A DNA stretch of 35,041 nucleotides from Salinivirgaceae bacterium (GTDB lineage Bacteria; Bacteroidota; Bacteroidia; Bacteroidales; SZUA-534): NCBI GenBank assembly GCA_027858735.1, contig JAQICC010000099.1, forward strand, positions 1 to 35,041. The letters are read 5' to 3'. Every line of letters begins with the position of its first letter. Within the stretch, counting starts at the first letter, position 1. The notes below the pieces were generated by a model that saw nothing but the letters and a program-made list of their open reading frames with translations, did not search any database and was not told where the DNA came from. Below, one piece after another: positions 1 to 15,619 of the stretch. Both the position numbers and the translations under genes were made by a program.

Positions 1-456
1 ATATTTAGGTCCCCAGTAAAAATTAGCTTTCCCTTTATGCCATTTTTCATCTTCTATAATTTCATTGGAGCTATGGGCAGATGGCAAAATAAAATTATGT
101 GAATAATATGCCCCATCACATAAATTATGAAACATATTTATAATAAAAGACTTACGTATCGATAGAATAAAGTTTTTTGAATAGTTGAATATTTTATCAA
201 TGAAAATTTTTTCTGGATTATTTGAACTTAAAAAATCCAAAAATTCACTCTGCTCATTTTCAATTAATTTTGAATTATTTACAAATTCAATGTTTTCATT
301 TTGAAGAAATACAATGGCTGACTCATCATACACACCAAAAAAAACAAGTTCAATATTTTCATTTTGAACCTGTAAATTTTTTGCAATAGAAATGCTTCTA
401 ACAATGTGCCCCATTCCTACTGCAGGATATGAATCAACACGAAATACTATTTTCAT
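1..456 (-). CDS. pseG: PseG-like UDP-sugar hydrolase, partial (3' end beyond window)
   Basis: The first 152 codons of a protein that runs off the left edge. In pseudaminic acid synthesis PseG removes UDP from UDP-2,4-diacetamido-2,4,6-trideoxy-altrose to free the sugar for the NeuB/PseI condensation. The N-terminus reads MKIVFRVDSYPAVGMGHIVR. It has the family's Arg-x-Asp-Ser start and GxGH motif, with His17 in the place of the catalytic His17 of Campylobacter PseG. A GPKY motif near the visible end fits the family's conserved GPxY segment. The ATG (454-456) overlaps the TAA of the upstream acyltransferase gene by one base, so the two are translationally coupled. A GT-B glycosyltransferase of related fold is the main alternative, but the flanking pseB, pseC, pseI and pseF homologues favour PseG. 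Confidence 0.8.
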   Translation of the reverse strand, partial: MKIVFRVDSYPAVGMGHIVRSISIAKNLQVQNENIELVFFGVYDESAIVFLQNENIEFVNNSKLIENEQSEFLDFLSSNNPEKIFIDKIFNYSKNFILSIRKSFIINMFHNLCDGAYYSHNFILPSAHSSNEIIEDEKWHKGKANFYWGPKY

Positions 457-1118
457 TATTCTACTTTACCAATAACCCTAGTTGGGTTTCCTACAACCTT
501 TGTAAAATCTTCAACAGATTTAATAACAACGGACCCAATTCCTACTAATGCCCATTTTCCAATTGTTACATTTTCAAGAGTACTGCAATTAGTTCCTAAG
601 TATGCACCTTCCTCAAGTACTACACTTGCTCCAATACATGCATTATTTGCAACATAACTATAATCTTTTAAAGTTGAGTTATGTCCAATTAATGATTGCG
701 CATAAATTTGCACATGATTTCCAATTTCAACATTAGGTCCAACTGACACAAATGGCTGAATACAAACTCCATAACCAATTTTTGCAAATTTTGAAACAAC
801 CGATGTAGGATGAATAATAGTTGCAAATCTTTCTATAGGAATTTTTAAATCGTGCAGTTTATGTAAAAACTTAAAATTTAATTTTGTTGAAATTAGGGTA
901 TAAATAAAAAACACATCCGGCTGATCTAAATACTTTGCTACAGCTTCATAATCGACTTTCCCAATAACAGGAAATCCATTAATGGGTTCTGTTTCTCTGT
1001 CGTTTAAAAAACCAATGATTTCATATTCTTTCTCTTTACTAGCTATATTTACATCTTCAATTGTAGAAGCTACTACTGTGCCATTCCCATATCCTCCAAC
1101 AATAACTATTTTCTTCAT
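456..1118 (-). CDS. NeuD/PglD-family sugar O- or N-acyltransferase
   Basis: A 220-residue protein of the NeuD/PglD family. It has a short Rossmann-like sugar-nucleotide-binding N-terminus (IVIVGGYGNG, residues 4-13), then a left-handed beta-helix built from hexapeptide repeats from about residue 100 to the end. His146, in GHNSTL, sits where the catalytic base of PglD lies. It ends with the VVGNPTRVIG signature typical of hexapeptide transferases. Relatives transfer acetyl groups from acetyl-CoA to amino sugars or to sialic acid hydroxyls. It lies 3 bases downstream of the first CitE-like gene and overlaps pseG by one base. That position between an acyl-CoA module and the nonulosonic acid genes makes it a candidate for transferring an unusual acyl group; this is inference. 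The donor cannot be read from the sequence. Confidence 0.85.
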   Translation of the reverse strand: MKKIVIVGGYGNGTVVASTIEDVNIASKEKEYEIIGFLNDRETEPINGFPVIGKVDYEAVAKYLDQPDVFFIYTLISTKLNFKFLHKLHDLKIPIERFATIIHPTSVVSKFAKIGYGVCIQPFVSVGPNVEIGNHVQIYAQSLIGHNSTLKDYSYVANNACIGASVVLEEGAYLGTNCSTLENVTIGKWALVGIGSVVIKSVEDFTKVVGNPTRVIGKVE

Positions 1119-1121
1119 AAA

Positions 1122-2006
1122 TTATTTATTTTCTATAAGTTGTGCTTTCTGTAGTATTTTTTTTGCAGTTGCAACCATTGGTGGTCCTATGAATTTACCA
1201 TTCATTATGGCTACACCTTTATTATCTTTTTCAGCTTCATCCTTCATTCGAAGCATTTCCTTAGCCTCCTTAATATCTTCTTCTGATGGACTAAAATATT
1301 TATGAGCCAGATCTATTTCTTTCGGATGTAGAATCAACATACCTTCAAATCCAAGGTCTTTTGCAATAATTAGATTCTTTTCTAAATCTACTAAATTATG
1401 AACATCTATATGAACTGTATCAATAGGTATTACATTATTTGCTCTTGCAGCCATAGCAATTATTGATCTTGGTGTAAAAATACTTCTCTCTTCCTTGTCA
1501 TGAATTCCTTGCAAATCAGTAATAAAATCTTCACATCCAAATGCAATAGCTACAACTCTTTCTGACGCTTGAATTATTTCTTGAGCATTTAACACTGCAG
1601 CTGCAGTTTCAATTAGAGGAATAATTTTGAATGTACCTACAGGTATATTTTTTTCATATTCAAGGGTTTCAAGAAGTTTTGCAAAAAAGTAGATATCTTT
1701 ACCTGTTTGAGATTTGGGATACATAAATCCATCTATTCCATCAATTGTTAGCGCTTGAATATCTTTAAGCAATTGACCACTTTCACGATCATTTACTCTA
1801 GGAAATACAAGATGATTCTTAAAAAATCCATCATTTATCTTTTCTATAATATTATTTCGGGCAACTTCTTTATTAGATACTGGTTGAACTGAATCTTCTA
1901 TATCTAATAATAATACATCAGCTTCTGATTTATTTGCACTAATTAATAATCGCTCATTATGGGCAGGAACAAATAATAATGTTCTGAGTAATTTAGTTGA
2001 TTTCAT
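1122..2006 (-). CDS. HpcH/HpaI (CitE/malyl-CoA lyase) family protein, copy 1
   Basis: A 294-residue CitE-like protein. Family members cleave or form C-C bonds between an acyl-CoA and a keto acid or aldehyde, for example malyl-CoA, beta-methylmalyl-CoA or citramalyl-CoA. Visible landmarks are LLFVPAHNER near the start, the LLDIEDSV segment (residues 33-40), Arg70 in FPRVND, PKSQ at 97-100, Glu133 in IPLIET, Asp160 in FGCEDF and LHPKEI near residue 235. Arg, Glu and Asp at these places bind substrate and Mg2+ in characterised lyases, so the enzyme looks active. It is 4 bases downstream of a MaoC hydratase gene and just upstream of the NeuD-like gene. A citrate-lyase subunit is ruled out because no citD, citF or citC is nearby. 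The actual substrate is unknown. Confidence 0.85.
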   Translation of the reverse strand: MKSTKLLRTLLFVPAHNERLLISANKSEADVLLLDIEDSVQPVSNKEVARNNIIEKINDGFFKNHLVFPRVNDRESGQLLKDIQALTIDGIDGFMYPKSQTGKDIYFFAKLLETLEYEKNIPVGTFKIIPLIETAAAVLNAQEIIQASERVVAIAFGCEDFITDLQGIHDKEERSIFTPRSIIAMAARANNVIPIDTVHIDVHNLVDLEKNLIIAKDLGFEGMLILHPKEIDLAHKYFSPSEEDIKEAKEMLRMKDEAEKDNKGVAIMNGKFIGPPMVATAKKILQKAQLIENK

Positions 2007-2010
2007 TTTT

Positions 2011-2466
2011 TTAGTTTTTTTTTGAAATTAACACGTGTCGTCTAAAAGATAACACCTTTTCACCTTTCTGGTTTTGGGCAATTGTTTCAACATATATTAC
2101 CCCCCTATCAGGTTTTGATTTAGATTCTTTAACTTCAAGCACTTCAGTTTTTGCATGCAAAGTGTCACCTATAAATACTGGTTTAAGATGTTTTACTGAT
2201 TCATATTCTAGATTTGCTATAGCCTTACCACTAATATCAGCAACTGTAAAACCAACCACCAAACTAAATACTAGAGTCCCAACAACTAGTATTTGTCCAT
2301 GCTGATGAGTTTTACAAAACTCCAAATCCAGATGTACTGGATGATGGTTCATTGTCAGCAACGAAAATAAATTATTGTCGCTTTCCGTAATTGTTTTACC
2401 TACAGAATGATTAAATACTTGTCCTTCAAAAAACTCTTCTAAGTAATTCCCAAATTGACTACTCAT
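2011..2466 (-). CDS. MaoC-like dehydratase, mesaconyl-CoA hydratase type
   Basis: A 151-residue single hot-dog-fold protein of the MaoC family, which hydrates enoyl-CoA thioesters. It resembles the mesaconyl-CoA/beta-methylmalyl-CoA hydratase branch: a SDNNLFSLLTMNHHPVHLD segment at residues 29-47, then IANLEYESVKHLKPVFIGDT. The usual hydratase-2 motif D-x-N-P-x-H appears as N-H-H-P-V-H (residues 40-45). His45 is kept but the Asp position is Asn; I cannot tell whether that is normal for this branch. It sits between two CitE-like lyase genes with gaps of 4 and 12 bases. A hydratase next to a malyl-CoA-type lyase mirrors the Mcl/Mch pair of the ethylmalonyl-CoA pathway, but here it lies in a sugar cluster. 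It probably takes part in building or trimming a hydroxy-acyl-CoA. Confidence 0.85.
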   Translation of the reverse strand: MSSQFGNYLEEFFEGQVFNHSVGKTITESDNNLFSLLTMNHHPVHLDLEFCKTHQHGQILVVGTLVFSLVVGFTVADISGKAIANLEYESVKHLKPVFIGDTLHAKTEVLEVKESKSKPDRGVIYVETIAQNQKGEKVLSFRRHVLISKKN

Positions 2467-2478
2467 AGTATATCTTTA

Positions 2479-3327
2479 TTAATTATGCTTATTATTAAAT
2501 CTAGAATTCCAATTGATTATATTAATAATTCTCTTTATATGAGGTTTTTCATATACTTTACCATTAACTTTTATTAAAGGTATTAATTCATTATCAATAT
2601 CTAATATTTGTGAATAAACCAATTTTGCCTCTTTGATCTCTTCATCTGAATAAAACTGAATTTCCTTAAGGAGTGCAATTTGTAATGGATGGATTACAAA
2701 TTTCCCATCAAACCCCAATGAAAAACCGTTTAAAGATTCTTCTTGAAATTCTTTATTGCTGGCTAAATTTAATGAAACAATATCAATTGCCTCTAATTCA
2801 TGAGCCTTAGCTATATTCAGAATTACATTTCGAGCATAAGTTAAATTTTCTAGCGTATGCCTCATTCCCATAACACTACAATAATCATAATTACCAAGTC
2901 CAACAGAAGTTATATTCAGTAAATTACTTCTAATTATATCCGTCAGGTTTATTAACCCAGCAGGATGTTCAACTAATAAAATAAATTTAAAATTTTTAAA
3001 ATTATCAGAAGTAATTTTAAAAATACCCTTAAGAGCCTCTATTTGAGACAAATTTGACACTTTAGGAATTAAATAGTTTTTAAATCCAATTTTTATAAGT
3101 TGTGAAAATAAATCTGAATTAATAGTATCATCCTCATTATATAACTTTGGTCGAACATAAGAATTTTCTGTAATTGTGATCGATCGTAGATTTCCAATAG
3201 CAGCACTCATTTCATTTTTCGAAACTGAATCTTCTAAATCATATATGAAATAATCAGCACCAATTAAGGGAACATTTTTAAGAAATTTGGTATTATTAGA
3301 TGGTACAAAAAAATAAGTTTTTAACAT
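2479..3327 (-). CDS. HpcH/HpaI (CitE-like) family protein, copy 2, divergent
   Basis: A 282-residue second CitE-like protein, clearly more diverged than the neighbour at 1122-2006. It keeps FFVPSNNTKF at the start, YDLEDSV (residues 29-35), IPKVS (87-91), a Glu in LLVEHPAGL (Glu120), an Asp in LGNYDYCSV (Asp148) and FVIHPLQI near residue 211. The Arg of the usual RVN motif appears as VRPKLYN (Arg59). The metal-binding acidic pair is therefore present, while the substrate pocket differs. Two unlike lyase paralogues around one hydratase suggest two successive or two different C-C bond steps; this is inference. A 77-base AT-rich gap separates it from the upstream pseF gene. I found no convincing promoter there, so co-transcription is likely. 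Confidence 0.8.
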   Translation of the reverse strand: MLKTYFFVPSNNTKFLKNVPLIGADYFIYDLEDSVSKNEMSAAIGNLRSITITENSYVRPKLYNEDDTINSDLFSQLIKIGFKNYLIPKVSNLSQIEALKGIFKITSDNFKNFKFILLVEHPAGLINLTDIIRSNLLNITSVGLGNYDYCSVMGMRHTLENLTYARNVILNIAKAHELEAIDIVSLNLASNKEFQEESLNGFSLGFDGKFVIHPLQIALLKEIQFYSDEEIKEAKLVYSQILDIDNELIPLIKVNGKVYEKPHIKRIINIINWNSRFNNKHN

Positions 3328-3404: not shown

Positions 3405-4094
3405 CTATTTATTTAATAATTTATATTTTAACTCTGCCAATTTCCAATCATCTAATGTATCAATATCCTGCATTTCCATCTCACCTAATACAATAGCACC
3501 TGTATTATCGCAAAGAATTCTTCTATTATCTATAACCGATTGAACTTTCATCCAATAAAACATTCCGACATCAAAATAACTTTTACTAATATCCTGAGAT
3601 CTTACTTTTAAAAATTTTTCATTATATGGGCTTACTTTTCCTTCTTCATTTTTTTGCAATGCCCACTCTAATGGAACAAGATATTCAGCAACAGGAATAA
3701 CAGAATTATAATTCTTCTCTACCATAAGATTGTAGGCCGATTTTAATTTTTCCGTTTTTATTAAAGGAGCTACAGGAAAAATACAACAAATATGATCAAA
3801 ATTTGTGTTGTGTTGTTTGTAAGAATCTATTACTTCAATTAAAACATCTGCAATTGTAGCAAAATCATTAGCATTATCTTCTGATCTCATAAAAGGAACA
3901 CTGGCACCATATTTTTGTGCAATCTCGGCAATTTCTATAGAATCGGTTGAAACCATTACTTCTTCAAATAAACCTGAATCAAATGCAGTTTCAATTGAAT
4001 AAGCAATAACAGACTTCCCACAAAAGTTCTTTATGTTTTTTTTTGGAATCCGCTTACTTCCCCCTCGTGCTGGGATTATTGCTATGTTTTTCAT
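3405..4094 (-). CDS. pseF: CMP-pseudaminic acid cytidylyltransferase (PseF-like)
   Basis: A 229-residue cytidylyltransferase that activates a nonulosonic acid with CTP to give the CMP-sugar. The nucleotide-binding signature PARGGSKRIPKKN is at residues 8-20. VSTDS and a CIFPVAPL segment follow; the latter matches the YPTAP region of PseF. Near the C-terminus YFDVGMFYW and MQDIDTLDDW are characteristic of the PseF branch rather than NeuA. Its length is typical. It is two bases from the GNAT acetyltransferase gene and shares a transcription unit with pseB, pseC, pseI and pseG homologues. A legionaminic or other nonulosonic cytidylyltransferase cannot be excluded, because the sugar's stereochemistry is not visible here. 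Confidence 0.87.
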   Translation of the reverse strand: MKNIAIIPARGGSKRIPKKNIKNFCGKSVIAYSIETAFDSGLFEEVMVSTDSIEIAEIAQKYGASVPFMRSEDNANDFATIADVLIEVIDSYKQHNTNFDHICCIFPVAPLIKTEKLKSAYNLMVEKNYNSVIPVAEYLVPLEWALQKNEEGKVSPYNEKFLKVRSQDISKSYFDVGMFYWMKVQSVIDNRRILCDNTGAIVLGEMEMQDIDTLDDWKLAELKYKLLNK

Positions 4095-4096
4095 AA

Positions 4097-4636
4097 TTAT
4101 TTATTCTTATAATACTCTTGTTTTGTAATATCAACCATTATTGAATCAACAAAGCTACCTTCAAAACAAGCATGATTTCTTAATTGTGCTACCTTTTCAT
4201 ATCCAGCCTTTATAAAAGCTTTATATGATCCAACATTAGTCGAATACATACCTGCATAAAGCTTATTTAATTCCAGTTTTTCAAAAGCAAATTTTGTAAC
4301 AAGACCAATAGCTTCTGTAGCAATTCCTTTTCCCCAAAATAACTTTTCCCCAATTATTAAGCCAACATCAGCTCTCTTATGTACATCACTAATACTACCA
4401 ATTTTTATATTACCAATATGCTTAGATTTTGATACATCAAATATTCCAAATAGATAATCCTTTTTACTATTTAGCATTGTATCCACGAAGTGTTCAATAT
4501 CCTTCAAAGTAAAGTTTTTTGAACGCGATTCAAGATATTTATTTATTTCAGTATCGTTCATCCAACCTAAATAATCATTACTAACATGATCTAACCTAAG
4601 CTCTTCAATAAATATTTGTTGCCCTATAATTTTCAT
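4097..4636 (-). CDS. GNAT (RimJ/RimL-like) N-acetyltransferase, candidate PseH
   Basis: A 179-residue GNAT-fold acetyltransferase. The acetyl-CoA loop is around LFWGKGIATEAIG (residues 99-111), and the NVGSYKAFIKAGYEK segment fits beta-strand/helix motif B. PseH acetylates the 4-amino group of the UDP-sugar made by PseC, using acetyl-CoA. This protein is the only GNAT in the cluster and lies directly next to pseF (2 bases away). It is also one base from the aminotransferase gene, so PseH is the natural role. RimL-type sequences are not very diagnostic. It could instead acylate an amino group created by the adjacent class III aminotransferase, so no symbol is given. Confidence 0.8.
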   Translation of the reverse strand: MKIIGQQIFIEELRLDHVSNDYLGWMNDTEINKYLESRSKNFTLKDIEHFVDTMLNSKKDYLFGIFDVSKSKHIGNIKIGSISDVHKRADVGLIIGEKLFWGKGIATEAIGLVTKFAFEKLELNKLYAGMYSTNVGSYKAFIKAGYEKVAQLRNHACFEGSFVDSIMVDITKQEYYKNK

Positions 4637-4637
4637 A

Positions 4638-5948
4638 CTAATTCAATCTTTTGAACCCAGCATGACAAACTGGTCCCTTTAATAATTTATTTATTGATTT
4701 TTCATTTATTGCTTTAGATATTTCTTTGAAACATTCATCTGTAGCTCTTAGATAAGAATCGACATGCTTATCCTTATGTGCGTATGACACATAAAACCCT
4801 GTTGTTGCCAAAAAACCCTTTTCAAGCATTAGTTGTGTAAAAATAGTCTTCAATTCAAGAGCTTGTTCATGCTTAAATCCAAAATGCCCAACCGGGTAGA
4901 AACCACTTGTATTTATTTCCAAACCATGTTTTAATGCCAATTTATCCCATCCTTCCATTACCTTCTTACCTATTTTCATTATATGGTCTTGGACATTAAA
5001 TTCTTTCATTTTTTTTATGGTTGCTAAGGCTGCTGTCGGTCCAATACTTTCCGTCCAATAAGTACTACTAATAAAAGTATCCTCTGCTATATTCATCACT
5101 TCATCAGTGCCTATAATTGCACCCATTGGATAACCATTACTAATTCCTTTTGCAAAAACTGCAATATTCGGTTCTATTCCAAGTCTTAAATGAGCTCCAC
5201 CAAGATTCATCCTCCATCCATAGCTTACTTCATCTAAAACAAGAATAATATCTTTCCTTTTCGAAATTTTAGATAATACCTCTAAAAATTCTTTTGTTGG
5301 TTCCATATTTCTTAATGGTTCAGTAACAACAGCTGCTATTTCGTCTTCATTTTCTATTAAAAGTTTTTCTAAACCTTCAACATCATTATATAAAAAAGGA
5401 ATAACGGTTCCCTCAAGCTGACTAGGTAAACCAGCAGTAGATAATCCTGTTATTAAATGCTTCCCTAAAGAATCGTCTCCGGACAAGTTTGCGGACAAAT
5501 ACCAATCATGCCATCCATGATAACCACATACTAAAACCTTATCTTTCTTAGTAGCTGCCCTTGCTATTCTAACAGCAATACTCATTGATTCTCCACCGGT
5601 TCTTGCATATCTAACCTTGCCAGCCCAAGGATGCAAATCAAGTAAACATTCAGCTAACTCAACTTCAACAGGTGAATTTAATGTACACATGCTACCTGCT
5701 GTAATTGTTTCAGATACAGCCTTGTTTATATCTTCATCAGCATACCCTATTGTACAACTGCCAACTCCCATTAAGCTAGTATCAATATATTTATTCCCAT
5801 CCATGTCCCATACTTCACACCCTTTTGCTTTGGTATAATAGGGTGGCCAAATATCTGGAGCAAACATTTCTGGCCTTTTTGACAACAACTGTGTTCCTCC
5901 TGGAATAATTTCTTTTGCTCTTTTATATAAATCTTGTCCTTTGCTCAT
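4638..5948 (-). CDS. Class III PLP aminotransferase, glutamate-1-semialdehyde aminomutase-like
   Basis: A 436-residue fold-type I aminotransferase of class III. VLDEVSYGWR (residues 237-246, Asp239) gives the PLP-ring Asp and FAKGISNGYPMG has the Schiff-base Lys267. A GGES motif at 118-121 and the HGWHDWY segment fit the glutamate-1-semialdehyde aminomutase subfamily. A role in tetrapyrrole synthesis is unlikely, as there are no hem genes and it lies inside the nonulosonic acid operon. Such paralogues occur in flagellin or O-antigen sugar clusters, where they are thought to add an amino group to a keto-sugar or keto-acid. With the downstream GNAT and the upstream AKR and SDR, it could form an oxidise-aminate-acylate route on the sugar or its side chain; this is inference. 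Confidence 0.85.
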   Translation of the reverse strand: MSKGQDLYKRAKEIIPGGTQLLSKRPEMFAPDIWPPYYTKAKGCEVWDMDGNKYIDTSLMGVGSCTIGYADEDINKAVSETITAGSMCTLNSPVEVELAECLLDLHPWAGKVRYARTGGESMSIAVRIARAATKKDKVLVCGYHGWHDWYLSANLSGDDSLGKHLITGLSTAGLPSQLEGTVIPFLYNDVEGLEKLLIENEDEIAAVVTEPLRNMEPTKEFLEVLSKISKRKDIILVLDEVSYGWRMNLGGAHLRLGIEPNIAVFAKGISNGYPMGAIIGTDEVMNIAEDTFISSTYWTESIGPTAALATIKKMKEFNVQDHIMKIGKKVMEGWDKLALKHGLEINTSGFYPVGHFGFKHEQALELKTIFTQLMLEKGFLATTGFYVSYAHKDKHVDSYLRATDECFKEISKAINEKSINKLLKGPVCHAGFKRLN

Positions 5949-5956
5949 AATTAGGT

Positions 5957-6814
5957 CTATTTAATCCATTTATACGGTAATAAAATATCTTCATTAACTA
6001 CCTCAAATTTAGATAATTTTTTTTGCAACAGTTTCACTTGTTTTATATAATTAACTGAATTTAAGTTTTGTATAAGGTTTTCAACATTATCAAGCCCAAT
6101 TACAATTTTATCAATATACGGATGTAAAAATGCATCATTCAAACATAATGTTGAAACTTCAATATTACTATTCATTGCTAATTCTTGTATCTCCAATATC
6201 TTACCTTTTACGGAATCAAAAAATGGAGGTAAATCTTTTTTAAAAAACAAACCTTGCAGAAAAACACTTCTTACATGAATTTCTACACCTTTTTCCTTTA
6301 GCTGTGGTAAATAACTATTAAATCTCTTGTCAAATAAGTTATAAGGTATTTGTACAATATCAAAACTAATCTTCTTTTCAAATAAATAATCAATCTGTTT
6401 AGGAAAATAAATTGAGAATCCAATTTTCTTAAATTGACCTCTATCTTTTAAATTCAAAAGATTATTATAAAAAGATTGATTTTCTAAAAAATTATCAAAA
6501 TTGTGTACTAGCCCTCCATAACATTCTGATTGTTTTAAATTATCAAAGCTATTTTTTACCTGATCATCAATAAATTCATTTGTACTAAACTTTGTAATAA
6601 TTCTAAACTTTTTATCCTTATTTTTCTCTAAATAAGAACCAATAACATCTTCACTATCACCATATAATGCAGCCGTATCAATGAAATTCACATCATTATT
6701 CCATGCAAAATCTAATAATTCAGTAATTATTTTGGGGTTCAACTTTCCATTTATATTAGTATACCCATAATCCAAACCAAAATTAGCCGAACCAATAACT
6801 AGTTTATTATTCAT
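5957..6814 (-). CDS. Aldo/keto reductase family protein
   Basis: A 285-residue aldo/keto reductase. All four catalytic residues are visible: Asp46 and Tyr51 in FIDTAALYGDSE, Lys75 in IITKFS and His104 in LVHNFDNF. The (beta/alpha)8 layout and length are typical, and IVIGLDNVENL near the C-terminus matches the NADP-binding strand of the family. It lies between an SDR gene (6 bases upstream) and the class III aminotransferase (8 bases downstream), so all three are co-expressed. Its role is probably reduction or oxidation of a carbonyl on the sugar or on its acyl substituent. No specific substrate can be named. Confidence 0.83.
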   Translation of the reverse strand: MNNKLVIGSANFGLDYGYTNINGKLNPKIITELLDFAWNNDVNFIDTAALYGDSEDVIGSYLEKNKDKKFRIITKFSTNEFIDDQVKNSFDNLKQSECYGGLVHNFDNFLENQSFYNNLLNLKDRGQFKKIGFSIYFPKQIDYLFEKKISFDIVQIPYNLFDKRFNSYLPQLKEKGVEIHVRSVFLQGLFFKKDLPPFFDSVKGKILEIQELAMNSNIEVSTLCLNDAFLHPYIDKIVIGLDNVENLIQNLNSVNYIKQVKLLQKKLSKFEVVNEDILLPYKWIK

Positions 6815-6820
6815 AAAATA

Positions 6821-7615
6821 CTATAATAACCCGTTTGAAATTCCTCCGTCAATCTGAATAGTTGTGCCTGTTATACTTCTTGCTAAATCAGATGTCAAAT
6901 AAGCTACCAAATCACCAAATTCATCTGGTGTTTGATACCTGCCCATTGGCAAATTTGCCACAGCTTCTTTTTCAACTTGGTCAACAGTAATTCCTAAACT
7001 ATCAGCTTTTGATTGCATCAATTCAATAGCACGATCTGTTTTAAAAGCACCAGGACATATATTGTTAATTGTGATATTAGATTTAATCAAATCCTTAGAC
7101 ATTGTTTTTGCCAAGCTTACAACACCAGTTCTAAACACATTTGATAACATCATTGTTTCTGCAGGCTGCTTAACTGTTAGAGAAGTGTTATTAATAATTC
7201 TTCCCCACCCGTTTTCCTTCATATATGGAATTACTAATCTGTATAATTCAATTACATATAGTAAAACTGAATCAAATGCATTTCTCCAATCTTCTTCTTT
7301 TAATGAAAAAAATGCTCCAGGTTTTGGACCCCCAGAATTGGTAACAAGAATATCTATTCTTCCAAATTTATCAATCACTTTTCCAATAACTTTCTTTTCA
7401 ATCTCCTTTACCTGTGAAAGATCAACCAAAATAGGTAAAACTTCAACATTAAAATTTGAACTTATATAATCCGTAGTTTCTACAAGTGAATCGTTATCAT
7501 TTGAACAAATCGCAAGGTTTACACCTTCTTTAGCTAAACTAATTGCACAGGCTTTTCCTAATCCTTTGCTTGCACCACCAATTAGTGCTACTTTATTTAG
7601 TATTCCTAAATCCAT
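6821..7615 (-). CDS. SDR-family oxidoreductase with replaced catalytic Tyr/Lys
   Basis: A 264-residue classical-length short-chain dehydrogenase. The cofactor loop GGASKGLG (residues 13-20) and the NSGGP segment (93-97, the NNAG equivalent) are present, as are the catalytic-region Ser145 and the C-terminal QIDGGISNGLL. The YxxxK active-site pair is missing. Lining up MLSNVFRTGVV with the usual YSASKAGVV puts Ser158 and Arg162 where Tyr and Lys should be. A branch of FabG-like SDRs with an SNxxR pattern is known, so this may be a different catalytic or binding chemistry rather than a dead enzyme. The gene lies between the neuB/pseI homologue and the AKR gene with gaps of 11 and 6 bases. It is superficially like PtmA of Campylobacter sugar clusters. 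Confidence 0.85.
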   Translation of the reverse strand: MDLGILNKVALIGGASKGLGKACAISLAKEGVNLAICSNDNDSLVETTDYISSNFNVEVLPILVDLSQVKEIEKKVIGKVIDKFGRIDILVTNSGGPKPGAFFSLKEEDWRNAFDSVLLYVIELYRLVIPYMKENGWGRIINNTSLTVKQPAETMMLSNVFRTGVVSLAKTMSKDLIKSNITINNICPGAFKTDRAIELMQSKADSLGITVDQVEKEAVANLPMGRYQTPDEFGDLVAYLTSDLARSITGTTIQIDGGISNGLL

Positions 7616-7626
7616 TTTAATAAGTT

Positions 7627-8637
7627 TTATTGAATATCATCAAGTGTGATTAATTGATCCTCTTTTATAGTCTTAAAAACTGTCCTTCCTATTACTGAAT
7701 TAAATTCTATGGAGCTAATACCAGTTCCTGGACGCTTGAAGGCAATATCATTTCGAGTTATAATTTCACCAACCCTTAGTTCTCTAGTCGATACAATACT
7801 TCTGCGCATCACGGACCTATCTATATTTTCGCCGGGAGCTAAGGTCTTTTCTGTTGAACTCAAACTAACATGTATCTCTTTTACCAAGCCAATCGATTTC
7901 TTCATTTCTTCTGGCTCTAAACACACCTGCCAATCTGGGCCCTTTTCTTCCCTTGAAGTAGTTATATGCTTCGTTATTACATCTGCCCCTGCTGCCACAG
8001 CACATGCTGGTGACCAAATATTCGAGGAATGATCGATGAATCCAACTGGAACCCCATACCTTTGTTTTAATGTATTAATAAACCCTAAATTAGTGTGCTT
8101 TAAATCTACCCCATGTCCACCACTTGCCATTGTGTGTTGCCCAAGTAATAATCCAAATTGAATATTTTTCCTTTTTGAAATACGGTTTATAGCCCATTCT
8201 ATTTCTTCTTCTTCTGCTAAAAGTAAACTTAGGAAGAATGGTTTACCAACCTCTGATACCATATCTAACATATCTGGATTGACTAAGTCAGACGCGTTAA
8301 TATTAAAAGCTGCACATCCCTTTTTTGCCATGATATTTATAAGCTTTGAACTTAGCGGAGCAACAACTAAATCAAGTCCCTTTTCATTAGAATAATCTAT
8401 TAATTCACCCAACTGTGTTTCTGAAAATTCTCTTTTTCTATATAATTCATAACCTTTATGAGATTTAATATAGAAATCCGAAGCAATAGCAAGTTGAAAT
8501 TCAATAGCGTCGGCTCCTGTTTCTGAGGCAATATCTATCATTTTAATTGCCTTTTTAAAATCTCCTAAATTGAATTGACCTTCCTCAATAACAAAATAAG
8601 GATTTCCTTTACCAATTTTATGTTTATTAATTTCCAT
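7627..8637 (-). CDS. pseI: NeuB/PseI-family nonulosonic acid synthase, divergent
   Basis: A 336-residue synthase that condenses phosphoenolpyruvate with a six-carbon amino sugar to give a nine-carbon acid. It has the NeuB TIM barrel followed by a C-terminal antifreeze-like (SAF) domain from about residue 275 (GTGISSIEFNSVIGR near the end). Metal-ligand positions seem kept: Glu18/19 in IEEGQ, His203 in GFIDHSS and His224 in ITKHIT. GPDW (233-236) stands for the usual GPDH. Several family hallmarks differ: IEEGQFN instead of AEIGxNH, NINASDLVN instead of the PSGE segment, and GQHTMASGG where a CxSxYP stretch is expected. It therefore belongs to a divergent NeuB branch and may take an unusual hexose. 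It follows pseC after 52 bases. Confidence 0.85.
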   Translation of the reverse strand: MEINKHKIGKGNPYFVIEEGQFNLGDFKKAIKMIDIASETGADAIEFQLAIASDFYIKSHKGYELYRKREFSETQLGELIDYSNEKGLDLVVAPLSSKLINIMAKKGCAAFNINASDLVNPDMLDMVSEVGKPFFLSLLLAEEEEIEWAINRISKRKNIQFGLLLGQHTMASGGHGVDLKHTNLGFINTLKQRYGVPVGFIDHSSNIWSPACAVAAGADVITKHITTSREEKGPDWQVCLEPEEMKKSIGLVKEIHVSLSSTEKTLAPGENIDRSVMRRSIVSTRELRVGEIITRNDIAFKRPGTGISSIEFNSVIGRTVFKTIKEDQLITLDDIQ

Positions 8638-8689
8638 TATAAATTGTTAAGGTTATGTTTAATTATTATTTTATAATTGTTACCATCAC

Positions 8690-9844
8690 CTATTTATTAT
8701 AAAAACTCAAAATTTCATTAATTACAAAATATTGTTCTTTTTCTGTTAATGTAGGATACATAGGTAAACTTAAACACTTTTCATAATATGATTCAGCTAT
8801 GGGAAAATCACCTTTTTTCCAACCTTTTTCTTTGTAATATGGCTGTAAATGAACTGGTATGTAGTGTACTTGAGTGAATATATTATTTTTTCTAAGATGA
8901 TTATATAATCCTAACCTATCTTTAATCTGAATAACATACAAATGAAAAGCGTGCATAATAATACTACTGCGTATAGGTGTAACTATATTTGCTTCAGCAA
9001 ATTCAGCATCATATTTTTGAGCTATTATATTTCGTTTGGCAACACTTGAATCTAGCTTCGCTAATTGAGTAATACCTAATGCTGCTTGCATATCGGTAAG
9101 TCGATAATTGTATCCTAAATCACGCATTTCGTAATACCAACCACCATGATTCTCCTCTAGTATAGTTGGGTCTTTAGTTATGCCGTGGGTTCTTAAATCT
9201 AACAATTTTTGGTATAACGATAAATTATTTGTTGTTATCATTCCGCCTTCACCACAGGCAATATGCTTTACTGGATGAAATGAAAACACAGTTAAATCGG
9301 AATAAATCCCATTTCCACACATCTGCGTATTTCCTTTCGAATCTAAAAAGTTTCCTCCAGGAGCATGGCATGCATCTTCAACTATCTTAAAACCGAATTC
9401 AGCTGATAAGTGACTTAGCATTTCCGTATCACAAGGATATCCAGCAAAGTCAACAGGAATAACAGCTTTATATGTTCCTTTAGGCGATGCTTCTAAAATA
9501 TCTTTTAGCTTTTCTAAATCTAAAGTAAATGTTTCTGCATCAATATCACAAAACACAACCTCAGCTCCACAATACAGTATGCAATTAGCACTTGCAACAA
9601 ATGTAATTGGGGTAGTAATTACCTTATCACCTGGCTTTATTCCTAATGCCATTAAAGAAAGATGTAACGCAGCAGTACCATTAGATACCGCAACGGCATA
9701 TTTAGCTCCTACTTTTTCTGCAAAATCTCTTTCAAATTTTGCAATTTGCGGCCCCTGTGTCATAAAATCGGAACGCAGTGCCTCTAAAACGGCATCCTCA
9801 TCCTGCTTGTCAATATATTGCTTACCGTACGGAATTGGATTCAT
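8690..9844 (-). CDS. pseC: UDP-4-keto-6-deoxy sugar aminotransferase (PseC-like)
   Basis: A 384-residue DegT/DnrJ/EryC1 aminotransferase. PseC converts UDP-2-acetamido-2,6-dideoxy-4-keto-altrose to the 4-amino sugar with glutamate and PLP. The PLP Lys193 lies in SFHPVKHIACGEGG, and VEDACHAPGG (Asp157) supplies the ring Asp. The sequence NPIPYGKQYID at the start and the HYIPVHLQPYYK segment near the end are typical of PseC. It overlaps the upstream pseB by one base, so the two consecutive enzymes are translationally coupled. Confidence is high because the partner dehydratase is a clear PseB. Confidence 0.92.
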   Translation of the reverse strand: MNPIPYGKQYIDKQDEDAVLEALRSDFMTQGPQIAKFERDFAEKVGAKYAVAVSNGTAALHLSLMALGIKPGDKVITTPITFVASANCILYCGAEVVFCDIDAETFTLDLEKLKDILEASPKGTYKAVIPVDFAGYPCDTEMLSHLSAEFGFKIVEDACHAPGGNFLDSKGNTQMCGNGIYSDLTVFSFHPVKHIACGEGGMITTNNLSLYQKLLDLRTHGITKDPTILEENHGGWYYEMRDLGYNYRLTDMQAALGITQLAKLDSSVAKRNIIAQKYDAEFAEANIVTPIRSSIIMHAFHLYVIQIKDRLGLYNHLRKNNIFTQVHYIPVHLQPYYKEKGWKKGDFPIAESYYEKCLSLPMYPTLTEKEQYFVINEILSFYNK

Positions 9845-10857
9845 TACTCTATTGGTTTAAAATTTGGATCAACATATTTTTTTATTAATTCACGCATTTC
9901 TTCCACTGATACCCATTCAGTATTAGTTCCAGAGTTATAAGTAAATCCTCTCTCCACCTCTTTAGCATTATAATGTTTCAAATATTTTTCTTTCTTAGAA
10001 ATTGTTGATAAAATAGCATAATACTTATCAAACTCAATAGTATTATAAGAATCACTATCTGTGATCATCTCCTCATGAAGTTTTTCCCCAGGTCTTATTC
10101 CTACATTAACAAGCTTTGCATTAGGAGCAATTGCTTTTGCAACTGTTTCAATTTTATAAGAAGGGATTTTGGGAACAAATATTTCACCACCAATGGCATT
10201 CTCAATAGCCCATAATACCATCTCTACCCCATCTTCTAAAGAAATATTAAAACGTGTCATTTCTCTATGAGTAACTGGTAATGAAGTTCCTTCCTTTGCT
10301 TTATTAATAAAAAAGGGGATTACTGAGCCTCTTGACCCCATAACGTTACCATATCTCACTGCCGAAAAACGAAGGTCTCTCTTACCTTTTATATTATTTG
10401 CAGCTATAAAAAGCTTATCAGAAACCAACTTTGTTGCTCCATATAAATTTATTGGAGCAGCCGCTTTATCTGTACTCAATGCAACCACAACCTTAACATC
10501 TGTATCTAATGCTGCATCAATTACCGATTGTGCTCCATCAATATTAGTTTTTATAAATTCTTCAGGATTGTACTCTGCTGCAGGCACTTGTTTTAACGCT
10601 GCAGCATGAATAATCACGTCAATTCCTTCACAAGCTCTTTTAAACCTAATCTTATCTCTAATATCACCTATAAAATATCTTATTGCACTATATTTTTCAG
10701 GAGAATAAACTTGAGCCATATCAAATTGTTTAAGCTCATCTCTTGAATAGATTACTAATCTTTTAATATCAGGATATCTATTTAAAATAATTTCTGTGAA
10801 TTTTTTACCAAAAGACCCGGTTCCACCTGTTATTAATACTGATTTATTATTTAACAT
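9844..10857 (-). CDS. pseB: UDP-N-acetylglucosamine 4,6-dehydratase (inverting), PseB
   Basis: A 337-residue NAD(P)-dependent extended SDR. PseB carries out the first step of pseudaminic acid synthesis: C4 oxidation, 4,6-dehydration and C5 inversion of UDP-GlcNAc. GGTGSFG (residues 11-17) binds the cofactor. The active site STDKAAAPINLYGATK (residues 128-143) has Asp130, Lys131, Tyr139 and Lys143, as in FlaA1/PseB, where TDK replaces the usual SSA. The length matches the family. It follows wecB after 11 bases and overlaps pseC. The inverting-type signature supports a pseudaminic rather than a legionaminic pathway at this step. Confidence 0.93.
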   Translation of the reverse strand: MLNNKSVLITGGTGSFGKKFTEIILNRYPDIKRLVIYSRDELKQFDMAQVYSPEKYSAIRYFIGDIRDKIRFKRACEGIDVIIHAAALKQVPAAEYNPEEFIKTNIDGAQSVIDAALDTDVKVVVALSTDKAAAPINLYGATKLVSDKLFIAANNIKGKRDLRFSAVRYGNVMGSRGSVIPFFINKAKEGTSLPVTHREMTRFNISLEDGVEMVLWAIENAIGGEIFVPKIPSYKIETVAKAIAPNAKLVNVGIRPGEKLHEEMITDSDSYNTIEFDKYYAILSTISKKEKYLKHYNAKEVERGFTYNSGTNTEWVSVEEMRELIKKYVDPNFKPIE

Positions 10858-10868
10858 TTTATTATGAT

Positions 10869-12008
10869 TTAATCAATTAGTGCTTTTATAATTTTTTCAC
10901 TGGCCTTTCCATCACCATAAGGGTTATGTGCTTTTGACATTTTTTGATAAGCATCTTTATTATCAATAAGTTCAGTTACCTCTTTTACAATCAAATCTTT
11001 ATCTGTACCAACAAGCCTTACAGTACCGGCATCCATAGCTTCCGGTCTTTCTGTTGTATCCCTCATAACTAAAACAGGCTTCCCTAAACCAGGAGCTTCC
11101 TCTTGAATACCTCCACTATCAGTAAGAACAATATATGATTTGCTCATTAAATAAACAAAAGGTAGATACTGCTGAGGTTCTATGAGGTGTACATTTTTAT
11201 ACTCCCCTAATAATTCATAAACCGGTTTTTGAACATTTGGATTTAAATGCACAGGGTAAATTAGATGAACATCAGGGTATTTATTTGCGATCTCTCCAAT
11301 GGCTTCACAAATATTTAAAAAGCCTTGGCCAAAATTCTCTCGGCTATGTCCCGTTATAAGCAAAAATTTATCAGATTCAATATTTATTTCATTTTTAAAT
11401 TCTGCATCTAAAGTAGTTTGAATTTCTGCCTTTAGAGATTTGTCAGAATCAAGTTTTTCACTTACAATCTGCAAAGCATCAATAACAGTATTTCCTGTAA
11501 CATAAATGCTATCTTCTTCGATGTTCTCCTTCAATAAATTTTCTTTCGAAAGTGAAGTTGGGGCAAAGTTATAGGTAGCAATTCGCCCTGTCATTTGACG
11601 ATTTATCTCCTCAGGCCATGGCGAATAAATATTATGAGTGCGTAAGCCGGCCTCCACATGTGCTACAGGAATTTGCTGATAATAGGCTGCAAGAGCAGTC
11701 ATGCTTGATGTAGTTGTATCACCATGAACAAACACTATATCTGGTTTAAATTCAGAAAGCACATCTCGCATTCCAAGTACTACTCGACTGGTAACATCAT
11801 ATAAATCTTGACCTGCTTTCATAATATTAAGATCATATTCAGGCTTAATATCAAATATTTCCAATACTTGATCTAACATTTCCCTATGTTGACCAGTAAC
11901 ACAAACTTTGGTGTCAAAATTAACTTTATCCTTTTGAAATTCCTTAACAACCGGAGCCATTTTTATGGCTTCAGGTCTGGTACCAAATACTAATAATATT
12001 TTCTTCAT
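10869..12008 (-). CDS. wecB: UDP-N-acetylglucosamine 2-epimerase (non-hydrolysing)
   Basis: A 379-residue WecB-type epimerase that interconverts UDP-GlcNAc and UDP-ManNAc. The start [18 protein letters not shown] is the family signature. [16 protein letters not shown] and the [17 protein letters not shown] segment hold the UDP and catalytic residues. The length is normal. It is 4 bases downstream of wecC, so the pair gives UDP-ManNAcA. The N-terminus is of the WecB rather than the WbpI type (WbpI proteins usually start with a GARPQFIK-like motif). It is therefore probably not the epimerase of the diacetamido-uronic acid branch at 22.7-28.5 kb. Confidence 0.93.
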
Positions 12009-12012
12009 CTAT

Positions 12013-13233
12013 TTATTTCTTAAAAACACCACAAAAGTCTAAAATTACTTTATCATTATTATATTCTAAAGCTTTAAACTCTTTGTGAGCCACTAAAAAA
12101 GCAATAATATCTGCACCTTTATATGCTTCCTGGTAATTAGTAAGTTTAAAAACTCCATGGTCCTCGATATTCGGCTCAACTACCATAATATTTCCGTCAT
12201 TTTCACTCTGCATCACTTTTTGCGCTATGTATTTTGCAGGTGATTCTCTTAAATCATCAATATCAGGTTTAAAAGCTAAACCCATAATAGCAACCTTAGG
12301 TTTTCTTCCATGCTTAAGTTCAAATTTCAATTTCTCATTCTCAATTTTCTCAGCACACCAAAATGATTTATGATTATTTATTTCTCTAGCCTTACCAATC
12401 AATCGAGCTTCCATAGGATAATCCGATACTATAAACCAAGGATCAACAGCTATACAATGCCCACCAACACCACAGCCTGGTTGCAGTATATTAACTCTTG
12501 GGTGCTTATTTGCCAACTCAATTAATTCCCAAACATTAATATCAGCTTTATCACATATCAATGACAATTCGTTGGCAAAAGCAATCTGTGCATCACGAGA
12601 AGCATTCTCAGTCAACTTACACATTTCTGCAGTTCTTGCATTAGTTGAATGTAATTCTGACTTGCAAAAATTTCTATAAAAGCTAATCGCTTTTTCTGTA
12701 GATTCAGGATCAACTCCTCCAAGAACTCTATCATTGTGTTCTAATTCATACATTACATTGCCAGGTAAAACTCTTTCAGGACAATATGCTATATATACTT
12801 TTCCTTTTAACTCTGGTCTTTCAGAATAAATTAAAGATTGCATTTTTTCTGTTGTACCAATAGGTGAAGTTGATTCAATTATATATAAATCACCTTCTTT
12901 AAGCAAAGGAATAATACCTTTGGTTGCGGCTTCAACATAAGAAATATCTGGCTCATGCTCTCCTTTAAAAGGAGTTGGAACAACAATAACATAAACATCT
13001 GATTCGGCAGCCTTAGTTGATGCCTTTAAAAAACCTCTTTTTACGGCATCCGCTACATATTCATTTAATTCGGGTTCTACAATGTGTATTTCTCCTCGAT
13101 TGATTGTATCAACAACAGTTTGATTTATATCCACTCCATGAACATGAATATTATTTTTTGCTAATAAGGCCGCTGTAGGCAGGCCTATATATCCCAAACC
13201 AATCATGGTTACTTTTGAAAAATCTTGTGCCAT
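12013..13233 (-). CDS. wecC: UDP-N-acetyl-D-mannosamine dehydrogenase (WecC)
   Basis: A 406-residue nucleotide-sugar dehydrogenase that oxidises UDP-ManNAc at C6 twice to UDP-ManNAcA with NAD+. GLGYIGLPTA near residue 12 is the NAD loop, and GVGGHCIAVDPWF holds the catalytic Cys typical of WecC. GLAFKPDIDDLRESPA marks the C-terminal UDP-binding domain. It heads the left-hand block of the locus and sits only 12 bases from a truncated ugd tail, so its upstream region has been rebuilt by recombination. It is one of three different UDP-sugar dehydrogenases in the window. Confidence 0.93.
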   Translation of the reverse strand: MAQDFSKVTMIGLGYIGLPTAALLAKNNIHVHGVDINQTVVDTINRGEIHIVEPELNEYVADAVKRGFLKASTKAAESDVYVIVVPTPFKGEHEPDISYVEAATKGIIPLLKEGDLYIIESTSPIGTTEKMQSLIYSERPELKGKVYIAYCPERVLPGNVMYELEHNDRVLGGVDPESTEKAISFYRNFCKSELHSTNARTAEMCKLTENASRDAQIAFANELSLICDKADINVWELIELANKHPRVNILQPGCGVGGHCIAVDPWFIVSDYPMEARLIGKAREINNHKSFWCAEKIENEKLKFELKHGRKPKVAIMGLAFKPDIDDLRESPAKYIAQKVMQSENDGNIMVVEPNIEDHGVFKLTNYQEAYKGADIIAFLVAHKEFKALEYNNDKVILDFCGVFKK

Positions 13234-13738: not shown

Positions 13739-14035
13739 TTATTGTATTTGCTTCCCATAAATATAATACCCTCCGGTTTTTTTACTTCCTTTTCGTTCAA
13801 TAATACCTTTACTATTAAATATACGAATATACTTATCAACTGTACTAAATGGTATTTCCAATGTTTCTGATAACTCTCTGGCATTTATTCCTGGATTATT
13901 CCTAATTTCCTTATAAACTAAGGCCTGCCTGTCAGTTAATTCGCCATTTAATTCGCCATTTAATTCGCCACTAATATTGAATTTTACCCAAATTGAGCGA
14001 TTTGCTATCACAAATCTGCTCAATCGACTGAGCAA
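13739..14035 (-). pseudogene. C-terminal winged-helix fragment of a broken AlbA_2-type regulator
   Basis: A 98-residue reading frame. The last 65 residues (LTDRQALVYKEIRNNPGINA onward) form a MarR/ArsR-like winged helix, as found at the C-terminus of AlbA_2 (Schlafen-like, RecG-related) transcriptional regulators. Before it is a perfect tetrapeptide repeat, GELN GELN GELT, coded by a 12-base tandem repeat at about 13936-13971; such linkers are common in this family. The first 20 residues look like random sequence from an inserted palindrome. It is probably the tail of the gene whose N-terminal part is at 14597-15619. Independent expression as a small DNA-binding protein is possible but unsupported. 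Confidence 0.7.
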
Positions 14036-14596: not shown

Positions 14597-15619
14597 TTAC
14601 TCTAGTGAAATATCTTTAGTTTTTAATATTTCCAAATCTTTTGGCAATCCCCCAGGATTATAAAACTCTATACTATTTGTAAATATTCTGATCCTAGATT
14701 TTCCCGGAGAAAAATAATCAGCATGCATTAACATATTAACTAATGCTTCACGTATTGCTGTCAGGCCTACAGAAAGTTCCTGTCCAAACCCATATGTAGT
14801 TAAGGTAAATTTAACATCAACCTTGTTTTTAAGCCTCGAAAAACATTCGAAATAATATTCCCAAAGATTTTCATGTTCATCTAGCCTAAATGTATAACGT
14901 AATTTTGCATCAGAATATGAATTGCCAGGGATTTCAAATAAATCTATTCTAAAATCATGAAAATGCTTTTCAATAATATCTCTTTTTCCTAACATTAACA
15001 AACCTCCATAGGTACATTTACCATCTTCAATAATTCGAAGTTTTGTTAAAAATTCCTCTTCATCAAATCTATTGTAGCTCACATCAGGATTAAACCGGGT
15101 CATGTAATCCCGATATCTGCTTAATGATATATTATTCAAAGATTCCCTACTGGTACCCGGTGCTTGTTCTGAAGTTTTTGTGCCAAATGTTTGGTCGCGG
15201 TACATACTATCAATCTCTTCCTTTGTAGCCCGCTGATCGGAACTGCCTCTTCGGATAAATGTATTCGTTTGATTATTGTAGTATATTGGTTTTTTATTCG
15301 ATGGTTTAATATAAAACCCTAAAACAGTCTTATCTGATATTCTAAATAATTGTTGTTTTGTAGAAACAAGGACATTAAACTTTTCACCTCTTAAGGTGTT
15401 TAAAAAATCCTGTTCAATTTTTTCGGTATTTTTTAAGCCTGATATTTCAAAATCCTTCCCTATTTGTTTTATGCCAAAAATTAACCATCCCCCATTGGTA
15501 TTTGAAAAAGCTGAAACAGTTTCCCAAGCAGACTTTGGAATTTCCGACTTGGCCTCTTTTACTTCAAAATCTTCCCATTCAATTTCAGTCAGTCTTTGTA
15601 TAAGTTCTTGTTGCGTCAT
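14597..15619 (-). pseudogene. AlbA_2-domain (Schlafen/RecG-like) regulator, truncated N-terminal part
   Basis: A 340-residue open frame. Residues 1-130 form an AlbA_2 DNA-binding domain (FEVKEAKSEIPKSAWETVSA, then FSNTNGGWLIFGIK). The C-terminal half is the ATPase-like HATPase_c_4 region, with LTAIREALVNMLMHADY and SIEFYNPGGLPKDLE. Intact relatives are about 450-500 residues and continue with SLPRNPIIAKLF and a winged helix; here the frame stops after KDISLE. The missing pieces are found further on at 14117-14476 and 13739-14035, out of frame and separated by insertions. Such proteins are predicted accessory regulators, and this one is unrelated to sugar synthesis. The truncated product might still be made. 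Confidence 0.8.

Follow-up and report, generated by a model that had tools for sequence, protein, structure and literature searches.

Gene content of the locus

Contig JAQICC010000099.1 of a Salinivirgaceae bacterium (C105 in a 5.99-Mb assembly of 452 contigs) was analyzed over its entire length of 35,041 nucleotides, hereafter called the window. It carries three adjoining genes, CitE2, MaoC and CitE1, which we consider here as a probable cassette for making an acyl-coenzyme A (acyl-CoA) used in amino-sugar N-acylation. They belong to a minus-strand cluster with the order WecC, WecB, PseB, PseC, NeuB-family protein, SDR, aldo-keto reductase (AKR), class-III aminotransferase (AT3), GNAT, PseF, CitE2, MaoC, CitE1, NeuD and PseG, and the contig start falls within PseG. 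Gene calling confirmed the layout that a model had proposed from the DNA letters without database searches (the sequence-only reading): MaoC is separated from CitE2 by 12 bases and from CitE1 by 4 bases, and the trio is flanked by PseF on one side and a NeuD-family acyltransferase and PseG on the other.

Both CitE proteins fall into the CitE-like (HpcH/HpaI) family PF03328 (gathering cut-off 25 bits). CitE1 (positions 1122 to 2006, minus strand; 294 amino acids [aa]) is the divergent core member and scored 135 bits (2.7e-39), and CitE2 (2479 to 3327, minus strand; 282 aa), the accessory member, scored 98 bits (4.8e-28). MaoC (2011 to 2466, minus strand; 151 aa) is a RipB/Mch-like hot-dog hydratase/dehydratase (PF01575, 3.2e-21; PF19315, 6.5e-17). 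Although it scored 62 bits on PF19315, the mesaconyl-CoA hydratase model (cut-off 26.5), it has a single domain instead of the two domains and approximately 350 aa expected of that enzyme. Among the NCBIfam models, RipB was the best match for MaoC and RipC the second best for both CitE proteins, with citE also among the nearest. All these scores were below the curated cut-offs: 134 bits for MaoC on RipB NF038241 (3.8e-39; cut-off 340), 116 and 73 bits for CitE1 and CitE2, respectively, on RipC NF038242 (cut-off 375), and 192 and 97 bits for the CitE proteins on the citrate lyase beta subunit model TIGR01588 (cut-off 443). The neighbors are sugar genes, and the 20 window proteins scanned included no CoA-transferase, no citrate lyase alpha subunit and, by Pfam, no ketoacyl synthase of a wfp-type cassette resembling type II fatty acid synthesis. 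An identity as citrate lyase was rejected, as the matches of approximately 30% in relatives are separate genes, some of them beside open reading frames (ORFs) that were named CitD- or CitF-like by sequence reading.

Distribution, sugar context and acyltransferases

A CitE1 profile search of GTDB genomes, filtered by two strict peptide patterns that miss divergent members, yielded 105 relatives, 80 of which were retained; together with the window, this gave 81 loci. They comprise 83 aligned CitE1 sequences, because L108 and L113 carry tandem CitE1 copies beside a single MaoC. According to the record titles, the loci are mostly from Bacteroidota, but also from Delongbacteria, Cloacimonadota, Ignavibacteria, Calditrichota, Balneolota, Verrucomicrobiota, Pseudomonadota and others; many are contigs of metagenome-assembled genomes (MAGs), some of them short, so mis-binning may have given a few wrong phylum labels. 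The set is partly redundant: CitE1 is identical in L040 and L041, while L058/L059, L053/L085 and L106/L109/L112 are close copies. Furthermore, L071, L077, L088 and L110 appear to be the contigs of L026 to L029, L046 that of L212, and L045 that of L215.

MaoC was detected by ORF calling in 76 of the 81 loci, in 75 of them directly before CitE1 and in one with an intervening gene. tblastn added MaoC in L049, L080 and L085; L048 had no match by either method, and the contig of L056 starts inside CitE1. CitE2 was present in 17 loci. Thus, the core of the trio is MaoC-CitE1, and CitE2 is optional.

Sugar-biosynthesis genes were found within 8 ORFs of CitE1 in 78/81 loci. Over the same distance, NeuD-family genes were present in 65 loci, DegT aminotransferase genes in 54 and genes for FdtA-like cupins in 14, with neighbor cluster names (Wzx, glycosyltransferase etc.) assigned by us from sequence; in this tally, L079 was entered as "DegT other" despite its Pse genes, and L042 and L061 were entered as Pse/NulO by a NeuB plus CMP-synthetase rule. 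Eight loci had no clustered NeuD, AAC(3)- or WbqC-like gene nearby, although four of them (L050, L056, L099 and L113) have a weaker NeuD-like or a tblastn match. In 20 control windows of 19 to 20 kb, hand-picked and not randomly drawn from other genomes of the class, a NeuD-like gene occurred once and DegT and PseB-like genes were absent, compared to 48, 43 and 33, respectively, among the 56 cassette loci reaching 15 kb. One control window (L198) held a 36% CitE2-like ORF.

A phylum sample that was not selected by context gave CitE1 in 7/394 other genomes. MaoC adjoined it in all seven, a NeuD-family gene was adjoining or one gene off in all seven, and DegT and CitE2 were present in six and five, respectively. 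A location of the trio mainly outside sugar clusters, which the sequence-only reading had named as an argument against itself, was therefore not what we saw. Its restriction to nonulosonic acids did not survive, since 64/81 loci (some on short contigs) have no NeuB-family gene within 8 ORFs. Close CitE1 relatives were detected in 4/60 genomes of the window's own order and family and in 0/394 others of the class sample; we conclude that the cassette is uncommon and scattered.

The cassette lies among Pse genes in 13 loci in addition to the window. The whole order PseB, PseC, PseF, CitE2, MaoC, CitE1, NeuD, PseG and NeuB/PseI was found in seven of the 13, namely in Algoriphagus (L058 and L062), Parafilimonas (L076), Maribacter (L083), Allomuricauda (L084), Flagellimonas (L090) and, with inserted genes, Salegentibacter (L063). 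L079 and L098 stop within or right after PseG, and neither PseC nor PseF lies in the 5.8 kb of L069. The same order was present in genome G1011, with PseG and CitE2 broken or short: at L222, PseG is read as two overlapping frames and CitE2 comprises only 219 aa (8296 to 9287 and 11329 to 11988), while CitE1, MaoC and NeuD are intact. Hence the conserved order pseF-CitE-MaoC-CitE-NeuD-pseG, which the sequence-only reading had suggested looking for, recurs in several genera, so the arrangement is not due to chance.

For comparison, we used the Pse loci of all 33 other class-sample genomes with a PseF over the TIGR03584 cut-off, none of which contained the cassette. A GNAT domain (single, tandem or fused to PseG) was present in 29 of these 33 loci (all but L154, L159, L175 and L176) and in none of the 13 cassette loci. 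The window has one, a PseH-like GNAT acetyltransferase (4097 to 4636, minus strand; PF13302, 1.6e-20) that scored 39 bits on the PseH model TIGR03585, under the cut-off of 93. The difference gave a Fisher value of 2e-7, with the window counted against it. The iteratively built GNAT profile takes in tandem-GNAT proteins; Pfam confirmed GNAT in 8/8 doubtful ORFs sent, a check that left out L149 (partial, GNAT upstream), L161, L164, L168, L170, L172 and L174.

All 14 cassette-bearing Pse loci contain a Pse-type NeuD, and the window copy (456 to 1118, minus strand; NeuD/PglD/VioB family) is 65 to 69% identical to the other 13. Its PglD_N (PF17836) and hexapeptide (PF00132) domains scored over the Pfam cut-offs, and on the subfamily model TIGR03570 it reached 149.5 bits, slightly below the cut-off of 160.8. 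When 339 genomes of one family were searched with NeuD alone, two matches were obtained, both beside CitE1: one in the Pse locus of G1011 (68% identical to the window copy) and one in a non-Pse locus of G1064 (39%). Pse-type NeuD was not found in the 394 other class-sample genomes, in which at most 7 candidates per genome were scored; the NeuD searches as a whole scored at most 7 or 8, so misses are possible. Together, these data suggest that NeuD and the cassette very probably replace PseH in Pse loci. The N-4 of the UDP-sugar becomes the N-7 of the finished nonulosonic acid, and this N-4 is the position acetylated by PseH (PMC6388019). Therefore, in Pse loci, the acyl group should end up at N-7.

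Other ORFs of Pse clusters were also noted. In L157, one ORF (11813 to 13177) fuses Zeta-toxin and GNAT domains. PIG-L-deacetylase-like ORFs are present in L063, L149, L159, L164 and L174, with formyltransferase-like ORFs beside them in L063, L159 and L174 (named by eye), which suggests another N-acyl swap, for example to N-formyl. PseA-like, HisH-like and HisF-like ORFs, which we take to be the set expected for acetamidino groups, occur in L160, L162, L172 and L175 (identified by eye, for L160 solely from ORF size).

The acyltransferase and the CitE1-MaoC pair behaved differently when Pse loci were compared with each other and with other loci. Using 10 of the 14 Pse loci and 20 randomly chosen from the 52 other loci having both MaoC and NeuD, mean identities within Pse loci and between Pse and other loci were 65.2 and 65.0% for CitE1, 66.4 and 66.7% for MaoC, and 71.1 and 33.1% for NeuD. 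Judging by these sequences, the acyltransferase tracks the sugar type and the CitE1-MaoC pair does not. The cassette thus most likely makes a single acyl-CoA, which would be put on different amino sugars by different acyltransferases.

Active sites, proposed chemistry and alternatives

In agreement with the sequence-only reading, both CitE proteins keep the metal-binding Glu and Asp. In CitE1, the metal ligands E133 and D160 were invariant in 83/83 aligned sequences, as were E37, D38 and R70. In CitE2, the Mg ligands E120 and D148 were conserved in 17/17 sequences, along with R59, which aligns with an Arg of CLYBL, and E32; D33 was present in 16/17. Not foreseen by that reading was the lack of the lid Asp in both proteins. 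The lid position of CitE1 is Gly274, and Gly was found in 83/83 sequences and also in outliers of 50 and 40% identity. The alignment to CLYBL places Glu260 at this position in CitE2, with Glu in 17/17. Of the CitE-like proteins of relatives used for comparison, 4/4 kept the lid Asp; three of these lie in operons that resemble those of citrate lyase by sequence reading. According to Zarzycki and Kerfeld (PMC3832036), this residue (Asp299 of Rhodobacter sphaeroides malyl-CoA lyase) is conserved superfamily-wide, except for Glu in the malyl-CoA thioesterase clade, and has been put forward as the base in CitE-like enzymes as well as in malate synthases. CitE1 and CitE2 alike thus fall outside the catalytic CitE-like subset as defined by the lid Asp. 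Since CitE1 lacks it and CitE2 has Glu instead, the malyl-, methylmalyl- or citramalyl-CoA chemistry that the sequence-only reading cited from central metabolism is doubtful here.

Two other positions distinguish CitE1. His16 was conserved in 83/83 sequences and in the seven phylum-sample members, with Asn in the four comparison proteins. At position 73, Asp was present in 83/83 sequences and Asp or Glu in the seven phylum-sample members, as opposed to His or Gln in the comparison proteins. Because both His16 and the acid at 73 are retained despite the missing lid Asp, even in the 40%-identical outlier, the residue pattern points to altered rather than lost catalysis. The CitE1 AlphaFold2 model (pLDDT 92.8; 91.8 for CitE2) matched malyl-CoA lyase 5ugr best (Z 36.5, root mean square deviation 2.5, 292 residues aligned), with further matches to malyl-CoA lyase 4l9y (Z 36.3), human CLYBL 5vxc (Z 34.1) and others. 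In MaoC, Asn40 was conserved in 75/76 and His45 in 76/76 sequences. The second domain of beta-methylmalyl-CoA dehydratase 8hgn has Asn and His at this pair, and 1q6w has Asp and His, as do the (R)-enoyl-CoA hydratases.

We propose, with a probability of about 0.62, that MaoC-CitE1, with CitE2 in some loci, is a portable acyl-CoA-making cassette for amino-sugar N-acylation, supplying through NeuD the group that would end up at N-7 in Pse loci. CitE1 would bind an Mg-chelated 2-oxo acid (pyruvate or similar) and a short acyl-CoA, and would form a carbon-carbon bond to give a carboxylated 3-hydroxyacyl-CoA of the citramalyl/malyl type; its acid-base residue may have moved from the lid, with His16 and Asp73 as candidates by conservation. 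As a member of its family, MaoC would interconvert the 3-hydroxyacyl-CoA and its enoyl-CoA. The adjoining NeuD-family enzyme is predicted to acylate the PseC product on its 4-amino group, the site of PseH acetylation, and PseG, PseI and PseF would carry the acylated sugar onward to pseudaminic acid bearing this substituent at N-7. Elsewhere, other acyltransferases would use the same acyl-CoA on other amino sugars.

As to the acyl group, malyl-CoA formed from acetyl-CoA and glyoxylate bears its CoA at the far carboxyl, in keeping with 4-malyl amides. Pyruvate in place of glyoxylate may lead to citramalyl, and MaoC may dehydrate or rehydrate malyl or citramalyl. Malyl, 2-hydroxyglutaryl and 3-hydroxybutyryl are among the N-acyl groups reported for marine Gram-negative bacteria and their glycans (PMC3210612). 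A bolder version of the proposal is tentative, and we consider it less likely than its opposite: CitE1 may be the first member described from a CitE-like clade whose acid-base chemistry has been relocated (Gly-Pro-Pro lid, His16 and an acid at 73), performing a biosynthetic, perhaps decarboxylative, aldol reaction of a 2-oxo acid with a malonyl-type CoA, for which a lid base would be dispensable. Together with MaoC, it might then yield a carboxylated or branched N-acyl group, so far undescribed, that decorates pseudaminic acid and a number of other amino sugars in Bacteroidota and other phyla.

Several points weigh against the cassette proposal. We know of no glycan structure for any of the loci found. 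With the lid Asp replaced by Gly in 83/83 CitE1 sequences, aldol chemistry may not run, and because 64/81 loci are without CitE2, a single chemistry for all of them is an assumption. L038, L050 and L085 have no clustered sugar gene within 8 ORFs of CitE1. The window retains its GNAT, the only one in the 14 cassette-bearing Pse loci, so NeuD is perhaps not the only N-acyltransferase there. NeuD could even be a plain acetyltransferase by analogy, given that its nearest solved relative by sequence is VioB (7txp), which we assume to be an acetyltransferase using acetyl-CoA. The relatedness of the loci and the many MAG contigs mean that the counts and the Fisher value overstate independence. Finally, the tree of the 81 CitE1 proteins needs four changes of the Pse label, only one of which is forced by the starred branches, and we therefore do not claim that Pse clusters captured the cassette repeatedly. 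The study of the related enzyme Rv2498c (PMC6689899) describes loose substrate choice in the family, and its authors deem assignments by bioinformatics alone unreliable.

Two alternatives concern the lid. MaoC alone could make the donor for NeuD, such as 3-hydroxybutyryl-CoA from crotonyl-CoA, with CitE1 and CitE2 hydrolyzing or editing wrong CoA esters and forming no bonds. N-hydroxybutyryl is indeed listed as a nonulosonic acid substituent in PMC6388019, and Flexibacter maritimus, of the same phylum, carries a 3-hydroxybutyramido group on an 8-amino nonulosonic acid, at a position given both as 7 and as 5 in the review PMC3210612. The lid residues agree with this alternative as well: CitE1 lacks the Asp, and the Glu of CitE2 is otherwise reported, in PMC3832036, only for the thioesterase clade. 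However, the rest of the CitE1 active site (its Mg, Arg and acid residues) does not vary among the 83 sequences, and CitE1 is kept as strictly as MaoC. The Asn/His pair of MaoC also resembles beta-methylmalyl-CoA dehydratase and not the Asp/His of (R)-enoyl-CoA hydratases, and we regard this explanation as rather unlikely, though the strongest competitor. The absent lid Asp would also suit a CitE1 that is a noncatalytic scaffold partner of MaoC or NeuD, using its Mg site for binding only; as the conserved His16 and acid at 73 point to changed catalysis, we give this little credence.

Two further alternatives concern the link to the sugar. If NeuD were an ordinary acetyltransferase replacing PseH, as the presumed use of acetyl-CoA by VioB would allow, the CitE-MaoC product could be used elsewhere, for example for a later N- or O-acylation of another residue of the same glycan. 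The eight loci without a clustered acyltransferase gene nearby fit such a role, even if four of them have the weaker NeuD-like matches. But Pse-type NeuD was found solely beside the cassette, both in the 339-genome family search and by its absence from the class sample (at most 7 candidates per genome scored), and the 33 Pse loci of the class without the cassette mostly have GNAT (29 loci); this makes the explanation improbable, somewhat more so than a donor made by MaoC alone. Least likely is that the set, which looks like RipB-RipC, was left over or carried along from itaconate/citramalyl-CoA breakdown or from citrate lyase and has nothing to do with the sugar. Although RipB, RipC and citE are the closest named models, the scores below the cut-offs and the lack of a CoA-transferase and an alpha subunit among the 20 scanned window proteins argue against it. 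The citrate lyase operons of relatives, by contrast, show CitD- and CitF-like ORFs by sequence reading, and the sugar context in 78/81 loci and in 7/7 of the phylum sample already contradicts it.

The link to the acylation of a sugar, as put forward in the sequence-only reading, is thus supported by several comparative tests and not by one gene order alone: membership in sugar clusters, Pse-type NeuD found only with the cassette, and missing PseH speak for it, while a special tie to nonulosonic acids was not upheld and the standard chemistry is doubtful. If true, the cassette proposal would account for non-acetyl decorations on sialic-acid-like sugars in some Bacteroidota, provide gene markers for the genome-based prediction of unusual N-acyl groups and offer an enzyme pair for in vitro study. 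Surface-sugar diversity would then involve two separate roles, that of an unchanging acyl-CoA maker and that of a variable acyltransferase. The residue comparison also adds a consistent change at the active site to a family described as conserving its lid Asp in all but one clade.

Other window features and comparison with known systems

In the window, PseB (4,6-dehydratase/5-epimerase; 9844 to 10857, minus strand; PF02719, 5.6e-98) and PseC (UDP-4-amino sugar aminotransferase; 8690 to 9844, minus strand; PF01041, 2.9e-109) are 62 to 65% and 49 to 63% identical, respectively, to their counterparts in cassette-bearing Pse loci. PseF (CMP-pseudaminic acid synthetase; 3405 to 4094, minus strand) reached 274 bits on the equivalog model TIGR03584 (cut-off 205.7). 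The N-terminal part of PseG (1 to 456, minus strand), cut by the contig end, covers residues 1 to 88 of TIGR03590 with 36 of 153.6 bits; joining it to another contig was tried and rejected, since the first 140 bases overlap no other contig. The NeuB-family protein is just 23 to 30% identical to PseI/NeuB of relatives. It belongs to a second block between PseC and PseF (4097 to 8637, minus strand), which the sequence-only reading did not mention and which comprises the NeuB-family, SDR, AKR, AT3 and GNAT genes. This block might serve to introduce or modify an amino group of a second nonulosonic acid. A 50% relative of AT3 occurs in L051, and L100 has a 37% relative of AKR along with a weak SDR. 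An 8-amino nonulosonic acid like that of F. maritimus, made by AT3, AKR and SDR, was considered as an idea only and was dropped because the block is not conserved as a unit.

The same genome (G000) has another nonulosonic-type cluster on contig C182 (11000 to 30500; L177) and two further NeuB matches on C209. Elsewhere in the window, a Schlafen/AlbA_2 gene (PF04326) and a separate small ORF that resembles its C-terminal part, judged by reading the sequence, lie at 13739 to 14035 and 14597 to 15619 (minus strand), as if split. Plasmid or phage cargo was rejected: there was no plasmid relative at 1e-40, and the seven phage-collection records found were all below 35% identity. No Rfam match above gathering was detected within the window.

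Among the matches listed in a search of openly available papers, none describes such a cassette. A close parallel in role is provided by wfpC-wfpG of the Flavobacterium psychrophilum O-antigen R1 (PMC6519341), where, in the same phylum and likewise within a sugar cluster, acyl-making genes are predicted to supply a PglD-family acyltransferase whose acceptor is the 4-amino group of a UDP-sugar, the acyl group being 3,5-dihydroxyhexanoyl. That system works with UDP-Qui2NAc4N and employs ketoacyl synthases, a reductase and an acyl carrier protein, whereas MaoC and CitE are of the CoA type. RipB (Ich) and RipC (Ccl) of itaconate degradation likewise combine a MaoC hydratase with a CitE-like lyase; the cassette differs by its scores far under the curated cut-offs, the missing lid Asp, the sugar context and the lack of a CoA-transferase among the scanned window proteins.

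The ethylmalonyl-CoA pathway has mesaconyl-CoA hydratase, malyl-CoA lyase Mcl1 and thioesterase Mcl2. Like the trio, this set has one MaoC-type and two CitE-type enzymes, one with a lid Glu (the thioesterase clade in PMC3832036). It serves central metabolism, its malyl-CoA lyase keeps the lid Asp, and the hydratase relatives 8hgn and 4e3e have two domains and approximately 355 aa. The canonical pathway PseB-PseC-PseH-PseG-PseI-PseF shares PseB, PseC, PseF and PseG (and PseI in relatives) in one cluster, but in 13 loci MaoC-CitE1-NeuD, mostly with CitE2, stands instead of PseH, and the window has GNAT in addition. In the anthrose operon, a dedicated enoyl-CoA hydratase-like gene is thought to supply 3-hydroxy-3-methylbutyryl-CoA to an amino sugar, a similar role filled by other enzyme families and without a CitE-like protein. 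A dedicated acyl supply for amino sugars is thus already known as a kind of cassette, of which the MaoC-CitE form would be a variant.

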